Assembly: GCA_030605565.1 (NCBI GenBank)
Contig: JAUWIB010000097.1
Location: forward strand, 1-61,914
DNA length: 61,914 nt
Direction of reading: 5' to 3'
Source: a bacterium
Lineage (GTDB): Bacteria; Zixibacteria; MSB-5A5; GN15; FEB-12
The notes beneath the pieces are model-generated. The model did not search any database, had not been told where the DNA came from, and saw only the letters and a program-made list of their open reading frames with translations. Below, one piece after another: positions 25,093-37,983 of this stretch (within the stretch, counting starts at the first letter, position 1; each line of letters starts with the position of its first letter). A program made the position numbers and the translations under genes.

Positions 25093-25890
25093 ATGGACAA
25101 ATCAGGCGGTTATACAGCATTTCCATTCGTGGCGGAGTTCTACGACGACACGGTTCCATACAATGAGCGTGGGGATGTAGCCTTCTTTGTTGAAGCCTCC
25201 GAAGCAGCGGTGGGCAAGACGCTGGAGATCGGCTGCGGCACCGGGCGGGTGCTGATCCCGACCGCGCGCGCGGGGTTTGAGATCGTCGGGATGGATCTTT
25301 CGACGGTTATGCTGGACATCTGCCGCGAGAAACTTGCCCAGGAACCGCCCGAAGTACAACAGCGCGTGCGACTGGAGATTGCGGACATGCGTGATTTCGA
25401 TATGGGTGAGCAGTTCGGCTTGGTGACAATACCGTTTCGTCCGTTCCAGCACCTTGAGACGGTGGAAGATCAGATGTCGTGCCTTCAGGCGATTCACCGC
25501 CACCTGGTTCCCGGCGGTAAGCTGATTCTCGATCTGTTCAACCCATCACTCAAGATGATTGTCAGCGACAAGACGAAAGAGGAGTTCGGTGACGAACCGG
25601 AATTCACTGTTGCTGACGGTCGTCGTGTCCTGCGTCGCATGCGGGTGTCGAACAAGGACCTCTTCAATCAGATCAACGACTGCGAGATCATCTACTACGT
25701 CACCCATCCCGATGGCCGCAAGGAGCGTTTGGTGCATGAATTCAAAATGCGCTATCTCTATCGCTGGGAAGCAGAGCACTTGTTAATCCGCTGCGGCTTC
25801 GAGGTCGAGCATTTGTATGCTGGCTACGACAAATCAGAGTTTGGTTCCAAGGACCCCGGCGAGTTGATTTTCGTGGCGCGGAAGGTGTGA
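25093..25890 (+). CDS. Class I SAM-dependent methyltransferase
   Basis: A 265-residue cytoplasmic enzyme. Motif I is 'LEIGCGTGR' (E45, G47, G49, G51), which binds SAM. D68 in 'VGMDLS' is the acidic residue for the ribose. 'LVPGGKLILDLFNP' is the post-motif strand. The substrate cannot be named; the C terminus has an extra beta-rich section ('RVLRRMRVSNKDL', 'VHEFKMRYLYRWEAEHLL') as in many small-molecule methyltransferases. An AGGAG site precedes the ATG. It lies just downstream of the tRNA. Confidence 0.85.
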   Translation: MDKSGGYTAFPFVAEFYDDTVPYNERGDVAFFVEASEAAVGKTLEIGCGTGRVLIPTARAGFEIVGMDLSTVMLDICREKLAQEPPEVQQRVRLEIADMRDFDMGEQFGLVTIPFRPFQHLETVEDQMSCLQAIHRHLVPGGKLILDLFNPSLKMIVSDKTKEEFGDEPEFTVADGRRVLRRMRVSNKDLFNQINDCEIIYYVTHPDGRKERLVHEFKMRYLYRWEAEHLLIRCGFEVEHLYAGYDKSEFGSKDPGELIFVARKV

Positions 25891-26038: not shown

Positions 26039-28348
26039 ATGTCGGACTATGCCAAATTGCGCGATGATCTGGTTGTCTCGCCCACGGTCATAGAAGGCGA
26101 GACAGTTTACAATATCAAGGACCCCATCAAGGGAACCTACTTCCGCCTGCGCGAGCCGGAATACTGGCTGATCAGTCAACTCGACGGCGTGACCTCGTAT
26201 GTTCAAGTCGCCGAGCGCTTCCGCAGCAAATTCCAGTTGAACATCAGCGAGGAAAACGTCCTGCAGTTCGTGCAGGCATTGGAGAAGCTCTACTTCCTCG
26301 ACAATGTGCGAGCCGAACAGGCCGTATCACGAACCAGCTACCTGATAGACAAGCATGGCTCCTTGTTCTCGAGGTTGCTGTTCGTCAAGTTCAAGGCGTT
26401 CAATCCGGGCAAGTTTCTGGATCGGCTGACATCGATCTACCGTCCGTTCCACAATCTTTACGGGTTCGCCTTGCAGGCTCTTCTGATTGTGCTGGGGATG
26501 TGGATTCTGTTGTTCAACTCTGACCAGTTCTCGGTCAGTTTGCACAGCATCTTCAATCTTGGTTCGATTATGGTGGTGATCACGGCGATTTTCATTTTCT
26601 TCATAGTGCACGAATTCGCCCACGCTATCATCTGTCGTTACCATGGGGGAGAGGTGCGCGAAATGGGTTTCCTGTTGCTGTACTTCCAACCGGCTTTCTA
26701 TTGCGATCTATCGGATGCCTGGCTGTTTAAGAAAAAGCGCCACCGCCTGGCTGTCACCGCGGCCGGACCGTACTTTCAACTGGTACTCATGGCCGTCGCG
26801 ACGATAATATGGCGGATCACAGTGCTCGGCAGCGGTCCCAACGATCTGGCTCGCATCGTCGTGATCATCAGTTGGGTCACGCTCCTGGTAAACCTGAACC
26901 CTCTGATAAAGCTGGACGGGTATTACCTTCTGTCGGACTGGGTGGACATTCCCAACCTGCGCCGCAAGTCATTCGGCCACCTGGGCAACGTGCTCAAGCG
27001 GCGACTGCTCGGCTGGCCGGTGGACCCAATCGAGGTATCAGATCGTCAGCGAAGGATCTTCCTGGTCTACTCCGTCTGTGCTGTGCTCTACACCGGAGTC
27101 CTGCTGGTGTGGGTGTTGTCGGTGGTGGCCGAGTTCCTGATGGGTATTGCCGGGGGGCTTGGATTATTGTTGTTGATTGCTTTCCTGTTTCTTACTTTGA
27201 AGTCAAGTATTGTAGGACTGAGTCGAGGAGTTGTCAGACATATCAGGTTTATGAAGACCCTATTGAGAAGCCCTTTGCGACTCGCTGTACACATTGCTCT
27301 CGCGGCGATAGTAGTTGTCGTGATGGTTGCCATCCCGTTCCCCAAACGGGTCACCGGCGAAGTTGCCATCCGGCCAATCGCTGAGTGTACCCTGCGGTTG
27401 AATAAACATGGCCTGCTGGAAACGGAATACCGGCGGCGCGGCGCCAACGCCGACCGCAAGACCAGTTTCCTCCAAATGACCTCAACCGACCTGGCCGCTC
27501 TGAAACTGGTGCGCCTCGTGAAGGATGGTCAGGAAGTGAAGGCTGGCGACTCGGTGGCTGTGCTCGCTTCCAATCAGGTGGCCACTGAGATTGCAGCGGA
27601 GACATCGGTGCTTGAAAAGGTGGAGAGTGAACTGGCGCTCTTGATGGCTCCACCTAAGAAAGAAGCCGTTGCTGAGGCGGAGGCACAGGTGACAGCAGCG
27701 AGAGCCAACTATCAGCAGCGGGACCGTGACCTCCAGAGGATTGAAGAACTGGCGTCCAAGAACCTAATCACCTACGAAGAACTGGATACGAAACGAGCCG
27801 AAGTGGCCATAGCCAAGGCGGAATTGGTCAATAAAGACGCGTCCCTCCAGTTGTTGCGGTCTCCGCCGAAACCGGAAGAGGTAGCAGTCCTCCAGGCTGA
27901 GATTGACAGGCAAATGGCGAAGTTGGAATTCCTGAGGTCCCAGCAAGCAGCGCAGACCATCAGAGCGCCGATGTCCGGTCGGGTAGATATCGGGCAGGCC
28001 GACGATGAGATACTCTCAATCGTGGACGACCATGAGGTCGAAATACTGGTGCCGGTTTCTGATTTCGATGTTGAGCTAATCAAGCTGGGTCAGGAAGTGC
28101 AATTGAAAGTACGCTCATACCCAAGCGAAGTTTTCCAGGGCAAGGTGATCCATGTACCGTTGAGCGCCGAGGTTGTTGACAACAATGCGATCTTTGCAGT
28201 ATCCGTGGTTGTCGACAATGAGGAAGGACGGCTTCGCAACGGGATGACCGGGTATGCCAAGATCGAGTGCGGACGATCGTCACTTATCATGAAAATAATC
28301 CGCAAGATCGCATCCAACGTGCGGGTTGAGTTCTGGTCCTGGTGGTAA
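26039..28348 (+). CDS. PqqD-like / M50 metalloprotease / HlyD-like adaptor fusion protein
   Basis: A 769-residue protein with three parts. Residues 1-90 resemble the PqqD/RRE fold that binds peptide leaders ('LRDDLVVSPTV', 'YFRLREPEYWLISQLDG', 'LEKLYFLD'). Residues 140-400 are a site-2-protease-type membrane domain with the zinc motif H191-E192-F-A-H195 and the second motif 'NPLIKLDGYYLLSD' (D293). Residues 430-760 are a HlyD-like periplasmic adaptor with a biotinyl/lipoyl-like half ('VKDGQEVKAGDSVAVL'), a coiled coil (about 520-640) and a second half ('IRAPMSGRVDIGQ'). Related fusions sit with peptide maturation and export systems. A 24-residue peptide gene with its own promoter follows 222 bases downstream. 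No ABC transporter is adjacent. Confidence 0.8.
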   Translation: MSDYAKLRDDLVVSPTVIEGETVYNIKDPIKGTYFRLREPEYWLISQLDGVTSYVQVAERFRSKFQLNISEENVLQFVQALEKLYFLDNVRAEQAVSRTSYLIDKHGSLFSRLLFVKFKAFNPGKFLDRLTSIYRPFHNLYGFALQALLIVLGMWILLFNSDQFSVSLHSIFNLGSIMVVITAIFIFFIVHEFAHAIICRYHGGEVREMGFLLLYFQPAFYCDLSDAWLFKKKRHRLAVTAAGPYFQLVLMAVATIIWRITVLGSGPNDLARIVVIISWVTLLVNLNPLIKLDGYYLLSDWVDIPNLRRKSFGHLGNVLKRRLLGWPVDPIEVSDRQRRIFLVYSVCAVLYTGVLLVWVLSVVAEFLMGIAGGLGLLLLIAFLFLTLKSSIVGLSRGVVRHIRFMKTLLRSPLRLAVHIALAAIVVVVMVAIPFPKRVTGEVAIRPIAECTLRLNKHGLLETEYRRRGANADRKTSFLQMTSTDLAALKLVRLVKDGQEVKAGDSVAVLASNQVATEIAAETSVLEKVESELALLMAPPKKEAVAEAEAQVTAARANYQQRDRDLQRIEELASKNLITYEELDTKRAEVAIAKAELVNKDASLQLLRSPPKPEEVAVLQAEIDRQMAKLEFLRSQQAAQTIRAPMSGRVDIGQADDEILSIVDDHEVEILVPVSDFDVELIKLGQEVQLKVRSYPSEVFQGKVIHVPLSAEVVDNNAIFAVSVVVDNEEGRLRNGMTGYAKIECGRSSLIMKIIRKIASNVRVEFWSWW

Positions 28349-28448: not shown

Positions 28449-28477
28449 TTGACAAATCTCGTCTTGTCACCTATACT
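28449..28477 (+). promoter_or_regulatory. Near-consensus promoter of the 24-aa peptide gene
   Basis: TTGACA (28449-28454), 17-base spacer, TATACT (28472-28477). This is among the closest matches to the sigma-70 consensus in the window. The leader holds a perfect small hairpin, GTGTCA-TGG-TGACAC, near 28518-28532. Confidence 0.75.
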
Positions 28478-28570
28478 TGACTAAACTCTGGAGTCTGGTA
28501 CGTTGATGGTTGTGGTGTCATGGTGACACTTGCTCCAGGGTAAACCATAGGATAGCAAGGAGGTGAGTTA

Positions 28571-28645
28571 ATGAAAGATTACAAGCTCACAGTCGAGGTC
28601 TTGGAAGCGCGCATCGCTCCGGCATTCAGTCAGGGTGGTCAGTAA
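28571..28645 (+). CDS. 24-residue peptide, candidate exported or modified peptide
   Basis: A tiny gene whose ATG stands 3 bases after a perfect AAGGAGGTGA ribosome-binding site (28558-28567). The peptide reads MKDYKLTVEVLEARIAPAF followed by SQGGQ. It has its own near-consensus promoter about 95 bases upstream and two terminators directly downstream, so it forms an isolated, apparently strong transcription unit. 'LEARIAP' is reminiscent of the 'LEPRxLL'-type N-terminal motif seen on some large secreted surface proteins; that likeness is from memory. Given the PqqD-M50-HlyD gene upstream, it could be a processed or exported peptide. The core region is very short and lacks Cys, Ser-Cys clusters or a Gly-Gly leader motif, so a classical bacteriocin is not evident. 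Confidence 0.6.
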   Translation: MKDYKLTVEVLEARIAPAFSQGGQ

Positions 28646-28708
28646 GGCTTCAGGCCTTCTTTGTTTTTAAAGACTGGAGGCAGGTGTTTCAGGCACCTGC
28701 CTTTTTTT
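28644..28708 (+). terminator. Two tandem intrinsic terminators after the peptide gene
   Basis: First stem: AAGGC/GCCTT (28644-28658), then CTTTGTTTTT. Second stem: GGCAGGTG (28679-28686) with CACCTGCC (28694-28701), then seven T. The second stem lies inside the last codons of the convergent kinase gene, so its DNA is both coding and terminator. Confidence 0.85.
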
Positions 28709-31696
28709 CTGCGCGAGTGCCTGCGACAGTCTCCTTATTTCGAAGACGAGGTACACGATTGTGCGCCGATTCTGGTACCTCTTCCGATCTTGCGGGTTAT
28801 CAATGTCCCCGGCTATCTTCTTGGCGGCGTCGAGTGCTTCTCTAAAGTATGAGTATGCTTGCTCGAAATCTTCGAGTTCGGCGTGCATTCGTCCAAACTG
28901 CGTGTAAACGTCCACCGTCTCCGGGAGTAGCCCAGCCGTAGCAGCGACTTTCTGGGATCGTTGCAAGTATCGCTCGGCTGCTTCATACCGCCTGAGGTTG
29001 ATCATCAATTCTCCCGCCAGGTTGCATAGCGAAGGCGTCTCGATTTCGTCCGGCATTTTGTCCAGGTCGACCAGGATATCGACGTACTGATCCGGGTTTG
29101 CTGTTTGGTCTTCACAACGCAATGTTCGGCCCAAAGCATTGAAATCAATCAAGAGCTTTTCGCGTTCCAACTTGAGTTCTACGGCCAAAGCACGGGCGCG
29201 CTGGAGATACTGAGAATCATCGGATATTCTGGTAATCACCAGTAGAGCTTCCAACTCCGTCGTTTTCTCTTTGACCGCCGCTCGCTGCCGCATGGTTGCT
29301 ACCGCAATACGCATGGCGTCGTCGCTGTCACCGATTCGCTGGCGCAGATCGGCCAGACTTATTTCCAGTTGAGCACGTCCCAGATGATCTTCTACTTCGT
29401 CGTAGGCAACGGCTGCTTCACGATAAAGCGCTTCAGCTTCACTGAACCGCCCCAGTCGTTTGAGAGTTCTTGCCATGCCGGCCTTGAACGCTGCCAAGTG
29501 GGGGCGATCATCCAACTCAACCGCCAGCGCCATGCCTTCCGTGAGGTACTGGATTGATCGTTTCAACTGTCCGGTAGAAGCCATGATGGCTGTCAGGTTC
29601 TCCAGGTTGAAAAGAATCTCTTTCTGCGTTCCGAGGCGACGGTTGATTACAAGTGAGCGCTCGAGGCACTCGACGGCTTCCGACGTTTCGCCGCGCAGAT
29701 GATGAGCGTAGCCGAGATTATTGAGAATGCGGGCTTCCTCAAGCTGGTTAGCGACCTCTCGACAAATATCGATCGACAGACGATACAGACGCACCGTCCG
29801 CTGCAGGTTCCCTACAACGGCAAAGATCGAGCCTATGTTGCTCAAGGTAGAGGCGACATCGCCCATCGACCCGAGTCGTCGTTGAATTCTCAGCGCCCGG
29901 CGATAACTTTTCAAAGCCGCCGGGTAGTTCGATCCAACCCAGTGGATATTGCCGAGGTTATTGAGGGTATGTGAAAGCTCCAACTCGTCTCCGAGCTCGC
30001 CGTAGATGCGTTGAGCACTTTCCAACGCCGCCAGACCGGCGAGGTGGTCCTGCTTCATCTTATACAGATCGCCGAGGTCCTTGTAGGTTTCGGCCAGGAG
30101 TTTGTCGGCCGGACGATCATGATACTGCTCAATGATGACGTTGTAGGTGACCATAGCCGCTTCGATCGCGCCGGTCTCTTTGAGTATGTCGCCCCGGATC
30201 ATCAGCAGTTGGCGAACATCGAAGGTCTTCCCGATCATCTCAGCATAGCTGATCACACTGTTCAAGAGGTTGAGAGCTGTCTCGTTGTCGTGGCTCTTGT
30301 TCAGCGTGATGGCAGCCTGATAGGCGCAGCGTTCGCAGGCGACAAGATCACCGGCCTGTAAATAGAGCCGTGCGGCCAACTCCAACCATTCGCGTTTCTC
30401 CGCCCTGGGAGCCGCTTTTGCAGACAAAGCTCTAACAGTCGACGGTTTCAGGAGCGGCCGGATGAGTTCGGTCAGTGCCCCGGACCCGGCCGGCGCCTCG
30501 CTGATGCTGAACAGTTCGAGAGCGGTGTCGGGTGACGGTCGTCCCGCAACGGCGGTCTGTATCATCCGGCGTCGTTCACGGAAGGATGCGTCCCCGAAGA
30601 CACCAAGCGTCTCGCGACGAGAACGTAACGGCCAGTAGATGTTTCTGGTGAAGACGAACCTGCCCTGGTCAAACACCAGGTTGCCTTTGAGGAAGTTGGC
30701 TGTCAGAACGGCCCGGAGTTGTTTCGAATCAGAGTCGGTCAGGAGATCGAGCCTGCGATGTTGCCGTGGATCGAGGTTCAGCGCGGCCCTGATGTTATCG
30801 AGATAGGAATCCTGTGGATCAACCAGGTGCTTTGGTTGCAGCGCCCGCTCAAACGGATAGGTAGCCCCGATGTCACGCAGGCGTTGGCATACTTCCCATC
30901 CATCGGCGGGACGATTCTGAGGGTTCTTTTCCAACAGGGCGGCCACTACTTCCCATACGGCTGAATCCATGTCCTTGCGATAATCGACCACCGGTGTTGG
31001 ATCGGTCTCGCTAACGCGACTGTTGATACGTACCGGATCGGCGTCATTACCCTCGATAAATGGATGTCGTCCGGTCAGAAGAGAATAGGCCGTCACTCCG
31101 AACGCAAACAGGTCGGAGCGATGGTTACAGATCGAGTCAGCGATAACCTCCGGTGCCATATAACCTACTGTGCCCAAACCGGCGCGAGCTTCTGAAGTTT
31201 CATCAACGTGTCGACCCAACGAGAAATCCGACAGCTTCAGATAAAACAGGTCGTCGTCGGTTCTATCGGACCACGTTGACGGGAGAAAGACGTTTTGTGG
31301 TTTGAGGTCACCGTGGACCAATCGGTGCTGCTGCAAGTATTGCAGGTTCAGCGCCAGAGCACTGATGAGATTCAGCATCAGCGGGACATTATCCACCCGT
31401 TCGGTCTGGTCCAGGGTGGGACCCTGGCACAACTCCAGCAATAGATAGGGCTGCCGGCCATCAGAGTATTCGAGTATTCGTACCAGCCCGGGGAATCTCA
31501 GGTTGCCGACAAGCTCATTTTCGCGATGGGCGAGATGAGCAAAGGATGATACGGTCTCAGGATTGCTGTCCAGGGGATACTTGAGGGCTGCTTCACGCCG
31601 CCGGTCGGTAACGTAGACCCTGATGACATTGGCCGTTCCCCCGCGACCGAGATGATCCAGGTATTGGAGACCGGGCGGCAGGGGCGGACGATTCAT
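28667..31696 (-). CDS. Serine/threonine protein kinase with TPR array
   Basis: A 1009-residue soluble protein. The N-terminal kinase has a glycine loop ('GRGGTANV', 17-24), the ATP lysine K39 ('AALKY'), a catalytic loop 'HGDLKPQN' (D130, K132, N135; the usual HRD reads HGD), 'DFS' at 157-159 in place of DFG, and 'APE' at 181-183. D157 is kept, so activity is plausible; HGD marks a kinase without the activation-loop Arg switch. Residues from about 480 to 990 are a long TPR array ('LAETYKDLGDLYKMKQDHLAGLAALESAQRIY'). The start lies 1 base after the stop of the histidine kinase gene, so the two form an operon. Confidence 0.88.
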   Translation of the reverse strand: MNRPPLPPGLQYLDHLGRGGTANVIRVYVTDRRREAALKYPLDSNPETVSSFAHLAHRENELVGNLRFPGLVRILEYSDGRQPYLLLELCQGPTLDQTERVDNVPLMLNLISALALNLQYLQQHRLVHGDLKPQNVFLPSTWSDRTDDDLFYLKLSDFSLGRHVDETSEARAGLGTVGYMAPEVIADSICNHRSDLFAFGVTAYSLLTGRHPFIEGNDADPVRINSRVSETDPTPVVDYRKDMDSAVWEVVAALLEKNPQNRPADGWEVCQRLRDIGATYPFERALQPKHLVDPQDSYLDNIRAALNLDPRQHRRLDLLTDSDSKQLRAVLTANFLKGNLVFDQGRFVFTRNIYWPLRSRRETLGVFGDASFRERRRMIQTAVAGRPSPDTALELFSISEAPAGSGALTELIRPLLKPSTVRALSAKAAPRAEKREWLELAARLYLQAGDLVACERCAYQAAITLNKSHDNETALNLLNSVISYAEMIGKTFDVRQLLMIRGDILKETGAIEAAMVTYNVIIEQYHDRPADKLLAETYKDLGDLYKMKQDHLAGLAALESAQRIYGELGDELELSHTLNNLGNIHWVGSNYPAALKSYRRALRIQRRLGSMGDVASTLSNIGSIFAVVGNLQRTVRLYRLSIDICREVANQLEEARILNNLGYAHHLRGETSEAVECLERSLVINRRLGTQKEILFNLENLTAIMASTGQLKRSIQYLTEGMALAVELDDRPHLAAFKAGMARTLKRLGRFSEAEALYREAAVAYDEVEDHLGRAQLEISLADLRQRIGDSDDAMRIAVATMRQRAAVKEKTTELEALLVITRISDDSQYLQRARALAVELKLEREKLLIDFNALGRTLRCEDQTANPDQYVDILVDLDKMPDEIETPSLCNLAGELMINLRRYEAAERYLQRSQKVAATAGLLPETVDVYTQFGRMHAELEDFEQAYSYFREALDAAKKIAGDIDNPQDRKRYQNRRTIVYLVFEIRRLSQALAQKKRQVPETPASSL

Positions 31697-31697
31697 G

Positions 31698-33506
31698 TTA
31701 TTCTCGTGCGGTTGGGGTGGTGCGTAAGCGGGGCAGGATCACCGTAAAAGTAGTACCTCCAGCGGCGAATGACCTGACCGTCAACTCCCCCTTGTGGTTT
31801 TCAATTATCCTCTTGCAGTTGGACAACCCCAGCCCATGACCACCTTTCTTCGTGGTGAAGTGCGGCGTGAAAACCTTGGCCAGAGTTTGTTCCGACATGC
31901 CGGCGCCATTGTCGGATATCTCGATAGAGATTCGTTCTGTTCGATCACTGTAGTCGGCAACAATACTGATTTCGCGCTTGAGATCCTTGCCGGTGTCCTG
32001 CTCCTTGATAGCTCTTTCTTCGATAGCGTCCGCAGCATTGTTGAGTAGGTTCATCAGCACCTGCTGAATCTGACCTACATCCATCTCCAGATTGGGAATG
32101 TCTTGACCAAGGTCGATTGTGAAGTGCATCCGTTTGAACCTCGGTTGCACCCGCATCGTGAACAGAAGATCCTCGATCAAGTGCTTGACGTCGTAGCTGA
32201 TGTACTCCGGCTCCGGCTTGGAGAAGTCCATCAGGTTGTCGACGAATCGCTTGATTTTGAAGACATTCTCAACTATCGACTTGGCGTTGAAGCGGGCCTT
32301 ATCGTACTTCTCGCGATCGAGATTCATCCCCATCAGTTCGGCGTTGGTTGAGGCGATGGCCAGATAGTTGTTGAGTTCATGTGCGATGGAGGCAGCCATT
32401 TCACCTTTGGCGGCAAGTTTTTCTGAGAGGATGACGTATTTTTCCATCACCACTTTCTCGGTGATGTCTTCAATCGTTACAATCAATCCATTGTCACCTT
32501 GCGGTAAGGCGTTAATAGAAGAGATTTTTATCGACAGTACTTTTTCGACATAGCCGGTATTGTGAAAATAGCGCGGGTCTGAAAAACCTTCAGCGGTAAC
32601 AAGAGCTGTGTTAATCATGCTCTGCCAACTGCCCTGCTGATCTGACGGCAGGAGATCGAAGAACATGGTCGGCGGTTCACCGTTGCCCAACGTCCTGACG
32701 GTATCAACGTTTACCTCAAGGATCTCCAGGGCGCTCGAGTTGATCGTGACCACCCTGCCGCGCTCATCTATTACAACCATCCCGATCGGAGACTTGCTGA
32801 TCACCGACTCATTGTACTTCTTCAGCCTTAGCAGCGAATCGTAGTGCGCGGCATTACGAAAAGCTCCCGAAACCGCCTGTGCGTACAGTTCGAACAGGTA
32901 CAGGTCGGACTTGAGAAACATCCGCGCTTCATTCGAGTTGTCGACGTATATGACGCCGATGATCTCATCCTTATCCTTGATCGGTACGCACATGATCGAG
33001 CGCAGGTGCAATTCGACAACCGACGCCTGCTGAGCGTAGCGTTCATCGGAGAGGGCATCGGAGGTATAGACCGACTTGCCGGTGGCCGCCACTTGTGAGG
33101 TCACGGAATTTGATATCCTGAACTCCTCCTCCATCATCTCTTCCTGACACAGGTTGTAGGCGGTGCGGATCTGAAGCGCTCCGTTCTCGTCCAGCAGCAT
33201 GATCAAGCCGCGCTCAGCTTGCATCAGTTCAATCGCCTTGCGCATCACGATTTGCAGCACATCGTCCAGGAGTAGCGACGAATTGATAGCATGCAGAACG
33301 GTCAGTAGCGCCTGAAGATCGGCGGTTGCCTTGGCGCCGTCAGGGTTTCTCAGATCGATGCGCGGATTGGTATCGGCTACCTCATCCAGTGTTGCTTCCA
33401 TGTCGGCGAAGATGTCAGCGGTATCCCCGGACGACACGGTCTTATCGCGTGGATCAGGAGGCTTATTGGAGCTCTTGTAGGTCTTATTTTGGTCAATAGA
33501 TGTCAT
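31698..33506 (-). CDS. GAF-PAS sensor histidine kinase
   Basis: A 602-residue cytoplasmic kinase with no membrane segment. It has a GAF domain (about 65-215, 'ERGLIMLLDENGALQIRTAYN', 'SIMCVPIKDKDEIIGVIYVDN'), a PAS domain (about 230-350), an H-box with H376 ('ASIAHELNNYLAIAS'), an N-box ('LMNLLNNAADAIEERA') and G-boxes ('DNGAGMS', 'GGHGLGLS'). No response regulator is adjacent. Instead the Ser/Thr kinase gene follows 1 base downstream, suggesting that histidine and serine/threonine phosphorylation belong to one pathway. Confidence 0.9.
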   Translation of the reverse strand: MTSIDQNKTYKSSNKPPDPRDKTVSSGDTADIFADMEATLDEVADTNPRIDLRNPDGAKATADLQALLTVLHAINSSLLLDDVLQIVMRKAIELMQAERGLIMLLDENGALQIRTAYNLCQEEMMEEEFRISNSVTSQVAATGKSVYTSDALSDERYAQQASVVELHLRSIMCVPIKDKDEIIGVIYVDNSNEARMFLKSDLYLFELYAQAVSGAFRNAAHYDSLLRLKKYNESVISKSPIGMVVIDERGRVVTINSSALEILEVNVDTVRTLGNGEPPTMFFDLLPSDQQGSWQSMINTALVTAEGFSDPRYFHNTGYVEKVLSIKISSINALPQGDNGLIVTIEDITEKVVMEKYVILSEKLAAKGEMAASIAHELNNYLAIASTNAELMGMNLDREKYDKARFNAKSIVENVFKIKRFVDNLMDFSKPEPEYISYDVKHLIEDLLFTMRVQPRFKRMHFTIDLGQDIPNLEMDVGQIQQVLMNLLNNAADAIEERAIKEQDTGKDLKREISIVADYSDRTERISIEISDNGAGMSEQTLAKVFTPHFTTKKGGHGLGLSNCKRIIENHKGELTVRSFAAGGTTFTVILPRLRTTPTARE

Positions 33507-36450: not shown

Positions 36451-37983
36451 CTAGTACACATGAAGATCCTCTAGAGGCACTGAGCCTGATATCGGTCTGT
36501 GGTCTTCGAGGTGTAGTGTATAGTTGACACTATAGCGCAGCTTTCTGGACTCAGCCCACACGCTGTCATCGAACCTGTATTCGAGGCAATAATCGGGCTC
36601 CCGGCCTAATAACTCAACTTCCTCACCAGGGAAAACGCGTTCATTCCAGTCGAGTGAGTACACTCTTGAGTCAACACTGCCTTTAGTGATGTTCCGCTTG
36701 GCCATTTTCAGACCTGCGGTTTTGGTGATCGGCACAATCGATGGCCATTCGAGTTTCAAGCGCAAGCGTCCCTGATCAGGTGGTTCGTTCAGTTTCAGCT
36801 TGACAGTTAATCCATATGTATGTAATCGATCAGATATCTGAAGCTCCTTGAATCCGATAGTCAACTCCGCGACTTCAGTGCTACTTGAGGGAATAATATC
36901 GTTCTTGTCGCGACTGGTGCGAGCAATAGAGGCCCTCAGTATTTCATCAGCAACGTTTTTGATTCCTGTTATTGTGCTTACGGCCAGTCGATCAGCCAGG
37001 GTGGGAGAATACTCCACTATGTCTTCATGTCCAACGTTGTGCCAGATAGGCAGAATGACTTTGGCCCCGTCAATCTCTTTCTGCACCAGTCCTGACAGTT
37101 CTCTCTCTGGCCAATGTTTGCCAAAGAAGCTCGGGCTGAGGACGACGATCCCAAATCGTGACCTTTTGAGACCATCATCGATCTTTCGAGACAGACTGTC
37201 TCCAAGAGTCAGAGATGCTTGGTCTAACCATACCTTGGCGTCATGACGCTGTAGTTCCTTCGAGAGAGGTAATACAACACTGTCCTTATCTTCCGATGCG
37301 TGGCAGATGAAAAAATCCCATTCCACATTTCTCTCCGACGATGAAGGTCTGTAAGGGGAGTAATCCCCTTCTTTCCTGAGACGCTGTAGGTTATCGTAGT
37401 TCTCCTTTGAGACGGTGAAGACCTCGATCAACCACTCCTCCTCATTACCCTTTTGTGACCAGATATGAGGCGCCCATGCAAAGCTTATCATCCCGTGTTT
37501 ATGAAGAAAATGCAGTTCCCGGACTATTCTTGAAGGTCCTGATTGAATAGCAGTTACCACTTCGACAACTGTGAATGGGCTCTCAAAGTCATGATCGTAA
37601 CGCCCGAGAATATATGCTGCTATTTCTTGCCGCAGTAAGTCATGAGAATCACTCGTATACCTATCCTTATAGAACGCCTCGAAGTTGCCAGTATCGATGG
37701 TTTCAGGATCCTTCTTCGCAAGTAAGGCATCCTTTAATACTCTGAGAAGGACGAGTTCTAAGGCACCAGCGGGTTTCTCTGATGCCAGAAGAATGTCAGT
37801 CGCTAGAACCACAGATTCCCTTGCACCTTCCAACGTCGAGATACCGAATTTGAAGGCTTTTGCGGTGCGACTGTCGATTCTACGTCCATGGCTTGGACAA
37901 GTTATCTCAACTACGTCATTATTAACAAGCAGATGAAGTTCAAAGGTACTTAAGCAACTGCTGAATTGGTTACCTTGTATCAT
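36451..37983 (-). CDS. TIR-domain protein with C-terminal beta domain
   Basis: A 510-residue cytoplasmic protein. The N-terminal part (1-215) is unrecognised, with a possible winged-helix segment near 135-175. The TIR domain spans about 221-345: 'WDFFICHASEDKDSVVLPL', 'VWLDQASLTLGDSL', 'SRFGIVVLSPSFFGKHW'. E295 stands four residues after W291, the same spacing as the catalytic glutamate of SARM1, so NAD+ hydrolysis is plausible. Residues 365-510 are strand-rich. The gene is AT-richer than its neighbours and monocistronic, between repeat-containing gaps. Bacterial TIR proteins often act in anti-phage defence; that role here is inference. Confidence 0.82.
   Translation of the reverse strand: MIQGNQFSSCLSTFELHLLVNNDVVEITCPSHGRRIDSRTAKAFKFGISTLEGARESVVLATDILLASEKPAGALELVLLRVLKDALLAKKDPETIDTGNFEAFYKDRYTSDSHDLLRQEIAAYILGRYDHDFESPFTVVEVVTAIQSGPSRIVRELHFLHKHGMISFAWAPHIWSQKGNEEEWLIEVFTVSKENYDNLQRLRKEGDYSPYRPSSSERNVEWDFFICHASEDKDSVVLPLSKELQRHDAKVWLDQASLTLGDSLSRKIDDGLKRSRFGIVVLSPSFFGKHWPERELSGLVQKEIDGAKVILPIWHNVGHEDIVEYSPTLADRLAVSTITGIKNVADEILRASIARTSRDKNDIIPSSSTEVAELTIGFKELQISDRLHTYGLTVKLKLNEPPDQGRLRLKLEWPSIVPITKTAGLKMAKRNITKGSVDSRVYSLDWNERVFPGEEVELLGREPDYCLEYRFDDSVWAESRKLRYSVNYTLHLEDHRPISGSVPLEDLHVY

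Follow-up and report, generated by a model that had tools for sequence, protein, structure and literature searches.

When a reading frame of only 24 codons carries strong expression signals, is it a gene and, if so, what becomes of its product? The question is raised by a locus in a 3.39-Mb MAG of Candidatus Zixiibacteriota, which we analyzed within a window of 61,914 nucleotides (the whole stretch of DNA under study, to which all coordinates refer).

The peptide gene, its signals, and its conservation

The frame and its signals are arranged as follows:

28449 to 28477, forward strand: sigma-70-type promoter of the peptide gene, TTGACA-17 nt-TATACT, with 11 of 12 consensus bases.
28557 to 28566, forward strand: perfect Shine-Dalgarno sequence, AAGGAGGTGA, by direct reading.
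28571 to 28645 (stop codon included), forward strand: putative precursor peptide gene of 24 residues, product MKDYKLTVEVLEARIAPAFSQGGQ, then stop (profile match in 104 of 132 phylum genomes; pN/pS about 0.3).
28644 to 28658, forward strand: first terminator-like hairpin, overlapping the peptide stop codon (hairpin search against shuffles).
28676 to 28704, forward strand: second terminator-like hairpin, which reaches into the 3' end of the convergent kinase gene (conserved in L003-L006).

By themselves, the promoter, Shine-Dalgarno sequence, and hairpins are only moderately unusual against shuffled sequence; the promoter control gave a mean of 0.3 expected sites in the region, and the two terminator-like hairpins compare with a mean of 0.7 in shuffles. 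A chance origin of the gene is ruled out because of conservation, not signal statistics. Most same-genus relatives keep the promoter, the Shine-Dalgarno sequence, the frame, and the hairpin at 28676-28704 (L007 is without a perfect Shine-Dalgarno sequence). TTGACA with a TATA-like -10 element also lies upstream of the peptide gene in same-genus relatives and many other genera, and an AGGAGGT-type ribosome binding site precedes the ORF in nearly all relatives. The preliminary description had claimed an isolated 24-residue gene with strong expression signals. The gene and its signals held, with ORF, promoter, Shine-Dalgarno sequence, and both hairpins confirmed and conservation decisive. The isolation did not: the gene starts 222 nt downstream of a gene for an RRE-M50-HlyD fusion protein, and a kinase-TPR gene converges on it, 21 nt away.

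Of the upstream gene's same-family orthologues, we inspected the first 25 and found, just downstream of 23, a short same-strand ORF with [LI]ExRIAP. A relaxed motif recovered the 24th same-family peptide (L010, ...LEARIVP...), and the same search added members in two other families of the order. A profile built from 33 peptides was then searched against 132 genomes of the phylum (threshold E <= 0.01) and matched in 104 of them, including 64 of the 78 high-quality genomes, almost always as a single copy in a short open frame. The gene is small enough for routine gene calling to skip, yet most genomes of this little-known, uncultured phylum have it, which suggests that the peptide probably does something basic.

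Across 73 peptide ORFs, mean entropy at codon positions 1, 2, and 3 was 0.70, 0.51, and 1.57 bits, and pN was 0.24 against a pS of 0.77, with pN < pS in 99.8% of pairs. The LE...P positions were invariant over these ORFs, yet every synonymous codon was used; a degenerate DNA pattern for the motif did no better than its backward control. Because third codon positions vary freely while the amino acids are fixed, the protein is what is selected. The coding frame is real, and purifying selection acts on the encoded protein.

A rival explanation gives the ORF a regulatory role, as an upstream or attenuator peptide, or makes it an sRNA that is not translated and is conserved at the RNA level. In its favor, the gene's own promoter, 5' hairpin, and terminators would give a short discrete transcript, and 5' hairpins occur in many relatives. 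Against it stand the free third codon positions beside fixed amino acids, the lack of a same-strand downstream gene to regulate, the absence of an Rfam family at gathering score, mostly weak folding z-scores of the 5' UTR (L024 reaches -3.2; the hairpins differ in shape and rarely beat shuffles), and the recurrence of the peptide in other phyla in different contexts. Conservation of RNA rather than frame had been set beforehand as the result that would refute the peptide. The test favored the peptide, the frame being kept across the phylum with third positions free, and the 5' UTR sequence showing no conservation beyond the genus. We hold this explanation to be highly improbable, and RNA-only conservation is ruled out by codon-position statistics and Rfam.

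Two observations on gene structure stand apart from this question. In the 5' UTR (window 28478-28570; also L005, L006, L009, L017, L022, and L024), a hairpin of variable sequence lies shortly before the Shine-Dalgarno sequence in many relatives, and its outer stem, CTGGAG/CTCCAG, has apparently compensatory changes within the genus. The second concerns genus g30 (L090, L106) and L012: the peptide genes of g30 form tandem arrays of 2-7 similar copies, each behind a ribosome binding site of its own, in which the ends SRYGAE/SRWGAD replace SQGGQ, and the genus has no kinase-TPR gene.

The fusion protein and the predicted leader and core

The gene upstream and the predicted parts of the peptide are these:

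26039 to 28348, forward strand: RRE-M50-HlyD fusion protein, 769 aa, predicted leader-recognizing protease and export adaptor (family matches, AF2 model, co-occurrence with the peptide).
26039 to 26290, forward strand: N-terminal RRE/PqqD-like domain, residues 1-84 (PqqD matches, AF2, Foldseek).
26609 to 26920, forward strand: M50 catalytic motifs HEFAH (residues 191-195) and NPLIKLDG (residues 287-294) (residue conservation).
27500 to 28345, forward strand: HlyD/membrane-fusion-protein adaptor region, C-terminal half (HlyD_D23 and RND_mfp matches).
28571 to 28621, forward strand: predicted leader MKDYKLTVEVLEARIAP with RRE-binding motif (L, E, A, and P invariant across phyla; same frame as the daptide leader motif ELExMEAP).
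28622 to 28642, forward strand: predicted released core AFSQGGQ, 7 aa (inferred from daptide cleavage after the conserved Pro).

The best whole-protein family match of the fusion protein was NF041824 daptide_HExxH (3.2e-70, below the equivalog cutoff), with a weak match also to the epipeptide protease model NF058609; its AF2 model has a mean pLDDT of 80. Pfam PqqD was matched in 27 of 39 homologues (best 1.2e-5), and NCBIfam daptide_HExxH in 34 of 39. In the AlphaFold2 model, the RRE domain has a core pLDDT of >90 and the strand-strand-strand-helix-helix-helix order of RREs. Foldseek ranks 1-6 in the PDB were TbiB1 and lasso B1 RREs with bound leader (target TM 0.66-0.72); E-values were weak (about 0.007-0.02) despite a probability of 1.00. 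The N terminus thus has, as a predicted model, the RRE leader-binding fold; binding itself is inferred.

The protease motifs are established by conservation, with H191, E192, H195, N287, P288, D293, and G294 invariant in 17 homologues of 32-100% identity. The Peptidase_M50 match (1e-5) scored just under its cutoff (25.4 versus 27.2), and the M50/site-2 criterion of HExxH and NPxxxLDG motifs within transmembrane helices is met by motif conservation and the AF2 model. For the adaptor region, HlyD_D23 matched at 1.8e-9, PF16576 and PF13437 scored above their cutoffs, MFP structures such as MacA, ZneB, and EmrA were matched by profile, and the model contains a long helical hairpin.

Aligned across phyla, the peptides read L-x-x-E-E-L-E-x-R-I-A-P, with L, E, A, and P invariant, and conservation ends at the Pro; this trans-phylum motif is a plain result of the alignment. 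Behind the Pro, Zixibacteria have mostly 7-8 residues, typically xGLSQGGQ, some with a short, Gly-rich tail, and the S-x-G-G-Q of the core is conserved in most members of the phylum in the peptide alignment. Other phyla have 25-110 residues rich in Gly/Asn/Pro/Ser at this place. Recurring core units such as GYEGQPGNQGG and GNPGNNNPPLNNTNNPGNEGTGG are common to different phyla, a recurrence that could reflect transfer or strong constraint on the core. The C-terminal residue is Gln, Gly, Ser, or Asp in this peptide and almost all of its relatives, with no conserved Thr, and no recurrent Cys was found in the cores. A linked precursor gene with a conserved leader and a variable core meets the general criterion for an RRE system. 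Loci at which the core units GYEGQPGNQ and GNPGNNNPPLNNTNNPGNEG were seen behind LExRIAP, in different phyla, are L146, L154, L157, L158, L159, L163, L165, and L173.

Three readings of the peptide had been put forward from the sequence alone. Those of a new small-protein family and of a peptide precursor are supported, with chemical modification of the product not established and no constant modifying enzyme; that of a classical signal peptide is not, the peptide having no hydrophobic stretch and LExRIAP fitting an RRE-recognized leader instead. A related alternative takes LExRIAP for an N-terminal sorting tag of the same kind as the planctomycete extracellular motif (PF07595/LEPR-XLL type), with small peptides as just one class of cargo. 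LExRIAP does resemble N-terminal motifs of large planctomycete secreted proteins, sharing the LExR..P flavor of PF07595, and one planctomycete peptide matches that family weakly. However, this match is not significant (best E 0.11, 1 of 31 peptides), the profile found essentially only short ORFs in 132 Zixibacteria and 16 other genomes, and the PF07595 motif occurs on large proteins, unlike here. The LEPR-XLL and Planc_extracel literature that we searched held nothing on an LExRIAP/RRE-M50-HlyD system. We consider a sorting tag improbable and an RRE-recognized leader the better account.

Pairing, neighboring genes, and the proposed mechanism

Peptide and fusion protein occur together. Both were found in 97 of the 132 phylum genomes and neither in 24, with 7 having the peptide only and 4 the fusion protein only (121 concordant, 11 discordant; Fisher p = 3e-16, without correction for phylogeny). 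Most of the six or seven peptide-only genomes are incomplete, and in G025 the fusion gene is cut by a contig end. The peptide lies downstream of the fusion gene on the same strand, 152-1208 nt apart, in 58 genomes, and on a different contig in 29. In seven genomes of family f4 (G042, G048, G050, G055, G056, G059, G039) it is found upstream instead, 20-24 kb from the fusion gene and on its strand, and still adjoins the kinase-TPR gene.

Scanning genome contigs for the fusion protein turned up relatives in Acidobacteria, Verrucomicrobia, Eisenbacteria, Planctomycetota, Rokubacteria, Bacteroidetes, a betaproteobacterium, and Aminicenantes. One to five LExRIAP ORFs lay near the fusion gene at 23 of 26 distant loci, nearly all outside Zixibacteria, and of the 39 leader peptides that a whole-genome search detected in 16 distant genomes, 37 belonged to the cluster of the fusion gene. 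The link of LExRIAP peptides to M50/HlyD genes in relatives, suggested beforehand, thus held in neighborhood and co-occurrence searches. Among sampled genomes the protein is patchy in Acidobacteria (16 of 199 in that phylum, that of L149) and near-universal in Zixibacteria. The recurrence of leader and fused protein in at least seven other phyla, with closely matching cores (e.g., GYEGQPGNQ), suggests a widespread class of short exported peptides.

Two features were noted at individual distant loci. In L162 and L167 (Aminicenantes-like), MAKKSTKKVVKLNVERLEKRIAPTRAAIAMG is present in three to four near-identical copies, downstream of the RRE-M50-HlyD gene but on the other strand, and in L151, L153, L161, L170, and L174 a conserved protein of ~350 aa follows that gene.

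From these results we propose that the 24-residue peptide is most likely the precursor form of a ribosomally made, secreted peptide of very small size; binding, exact cleavage site, modification, export, and function are inferred. Residues 1-17, ending in LEARIAP, would be the leader, to which the N-terminal RRE domain of the neighboring membrane protein would bind. That protein's M50 domain, an intramembrane metalloprotease, would cut after the conserved Pro, and the fused HlyD adaptor would pass the short core (AFSQGGQ) across the envelope together with transport partners whose genes lie elsewhere. Cleavage after RIAP, releasing AFSQGGQ, is predicted by analogy, because in daptides an RRE-site-2-protease accompanies ELExMEAP-leader precursors that are cut C-terminal to that Pro (PMC10036551; PMC12670281). 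The M50 protease EpeP is likewise thought to cleave and export its epipeptide (PMC10885120). Points against the mechanism are the separation in f4, the 29 split-contig genomes, the discordant genomes, the sub-cutoff M50 and daptide scores, the weak Foldseek E-values of the RRE domain, the lack of cleavage or product data, and the lack of a constant transporter: neither an inner-membrane transporter nor an outer-membrane channel was constant at the loci examined. If the design in which one protein recognizes, cuts, and exports is true, it would offer a compact tool for releasing arbitrary short peptides.

Alternatively, the product of the pair could be a true RiPP, chemically modified by enzymes whose genes are located elsewhere in the genome. 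RRE domains and several precursors per cluster are typical of RiPP loci, and the closest characterized proteases, DapP/MpaP and LiaK/YydH, serve modified peptides. Against this, no modifying enzyme is constant at the loci of any phylum examined (the upstream methyltransferase, 25093-25890, accompanies the pair at just one further locus), and the cores have neither recurrent Cys nor the daptide C-terminal Thr. The daptide RRE enzyme model NF041823 was also unmatched in the genome, which is weak evidence, as the control was silent too. We find a modified product doubtful and retain release of the core as the preferred reading.

Two syntenic neighbors lie on the other side of the peptide gene:

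28667 to 31696, reverse strand: convergent Ser/Thr kinase-TPR gene (Pfam Pkinase, TPR_12).
31698 to 33506, reverse strand: GAF/PAS histidine kinase gene, further neighbor (Pfam; synteny).

The first of these is a conceivable though unproven sensor. One reading, which would add a function to peptide release, makes the released 7-8 residue peptide an intercellular signal that is re-imported or sensed, with the TPR of the convergent kinase as receptor (RRNPP-like, with kinase output). TPRs bind signal peptides in RRNPP systems. The kinase-TPR gene converges on the peptide gene at a distance of 25-370 nt in 72 of the 78 genomes with both, even where the fusion gene has moved away, and about ten genomes of the order (g3, g6, g21, g23, g27, g44, g50) have lost both kinase and peptide, with the histidine kinase staying in three. 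However, g30 keeps tandem peptides and mostly the fusion gene without the kinase, G017 and G073 have the kinase but neither peptide nor fusion protein, no kinase accompanies the pair at the loci examined outside Zixibacteria, and the core is somewhat variable, with Gly-rich tails in some members. On this evidence the signal reading is possible but not likely. A bolder version also seems improbable to us: a new trans-phylum class of ribosomal peptides that one fused protein recognizes, cuts, and exports, whose product in Zixibacteria, 7-8 residues long, acts as a cell-to-cell signal sensed by the adjacent TPR kinase in a phylum-wide system. Because the pair is near-universal in the phylum and the core is short and conserved, we favor signaling or another housekeeping envelope role over antibiosis, the function of the product being inferred.

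Some candidates were set aside. The kinase-TPR protein as an obligate partner was ruled out by g30 and g12, and ClC channel genes near some peptides (L090-L093) were judged incidental. Elsewhere in the window (36451-37983, reverse strand), a 510-aa ORF has a TIR-like stretch (WDFFICHASEDKDSVVLPLSKELQ...), recognized by eye only, and could be a defense or signaling protein.

Comparison with known systems

No published description of the peptide family was found in the literature and family databases searched; in the literature, motif and core-string searches gave only spurious word matches. As a working comparison only, RRNPP systems (Rap/PlcR/NprR) and Eep-processed pheromones share a short linear peptide, a membrane metalloprotease, and a nearby TPR protein; here, however, the envelope is of Gram-negative type, the leader is RRE-guided, and a receptor is neither shown nor obligate. 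Lasso peptide B1 and PqqD proteins share the RRE fold and PqqD sequence matches, whereas the RRE here is part of a membrane protease, and there are no lasso cyclase or PQQ enzymes at the locus. Epipeptides (EpeX/YydF, EpeP/LiaK, NF058609) likewise have an M50 protease to which the cleavage and export of a small peptide are attributed. Their precursor differs from ours, in which RRE and HlyD are fused to the protease, and no radical SAM epimerase, the epipeptide hallmark, was recognized among the neighbors examined.

Daptides (mpa/dap; MpaP/DapP, NF041824) likewise have an N-terminal RRE fused to an intramembrane M50/site-2 protease and short precursors, often several per cluster (PMC10036551). 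Their leader motif ELExMEAP and the ELExRIAP/VLEARIAP found here are of equal length, with L, E, A, and P in common and M-E replaced by R-I. The differences lie in the peptide, which has no invariant C-terminal Thr and no core rich in branched-chain residues, its core being 7-8 aa or Gly/Asn/Pro-rich; in the added HlyD domain of the protease; and in the locus, where no daptide decarboxylase, aminotransferase, ABC genes, or DapB/MpaB RRE enzyme was found. In its sequence features, the system resembles daptide leader processing, with processing itself inferred by analogy, yet it is not a daptide because it lacks the C-terminal Thr and, at the locus, the daptide enzyme set, and carries the added HlyD domain. 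With cleavage and export inferred, the system most probably represents RRE-guided ribosomal peptide release in a variant that, as far as the literature and databases searched go, has not been described before.
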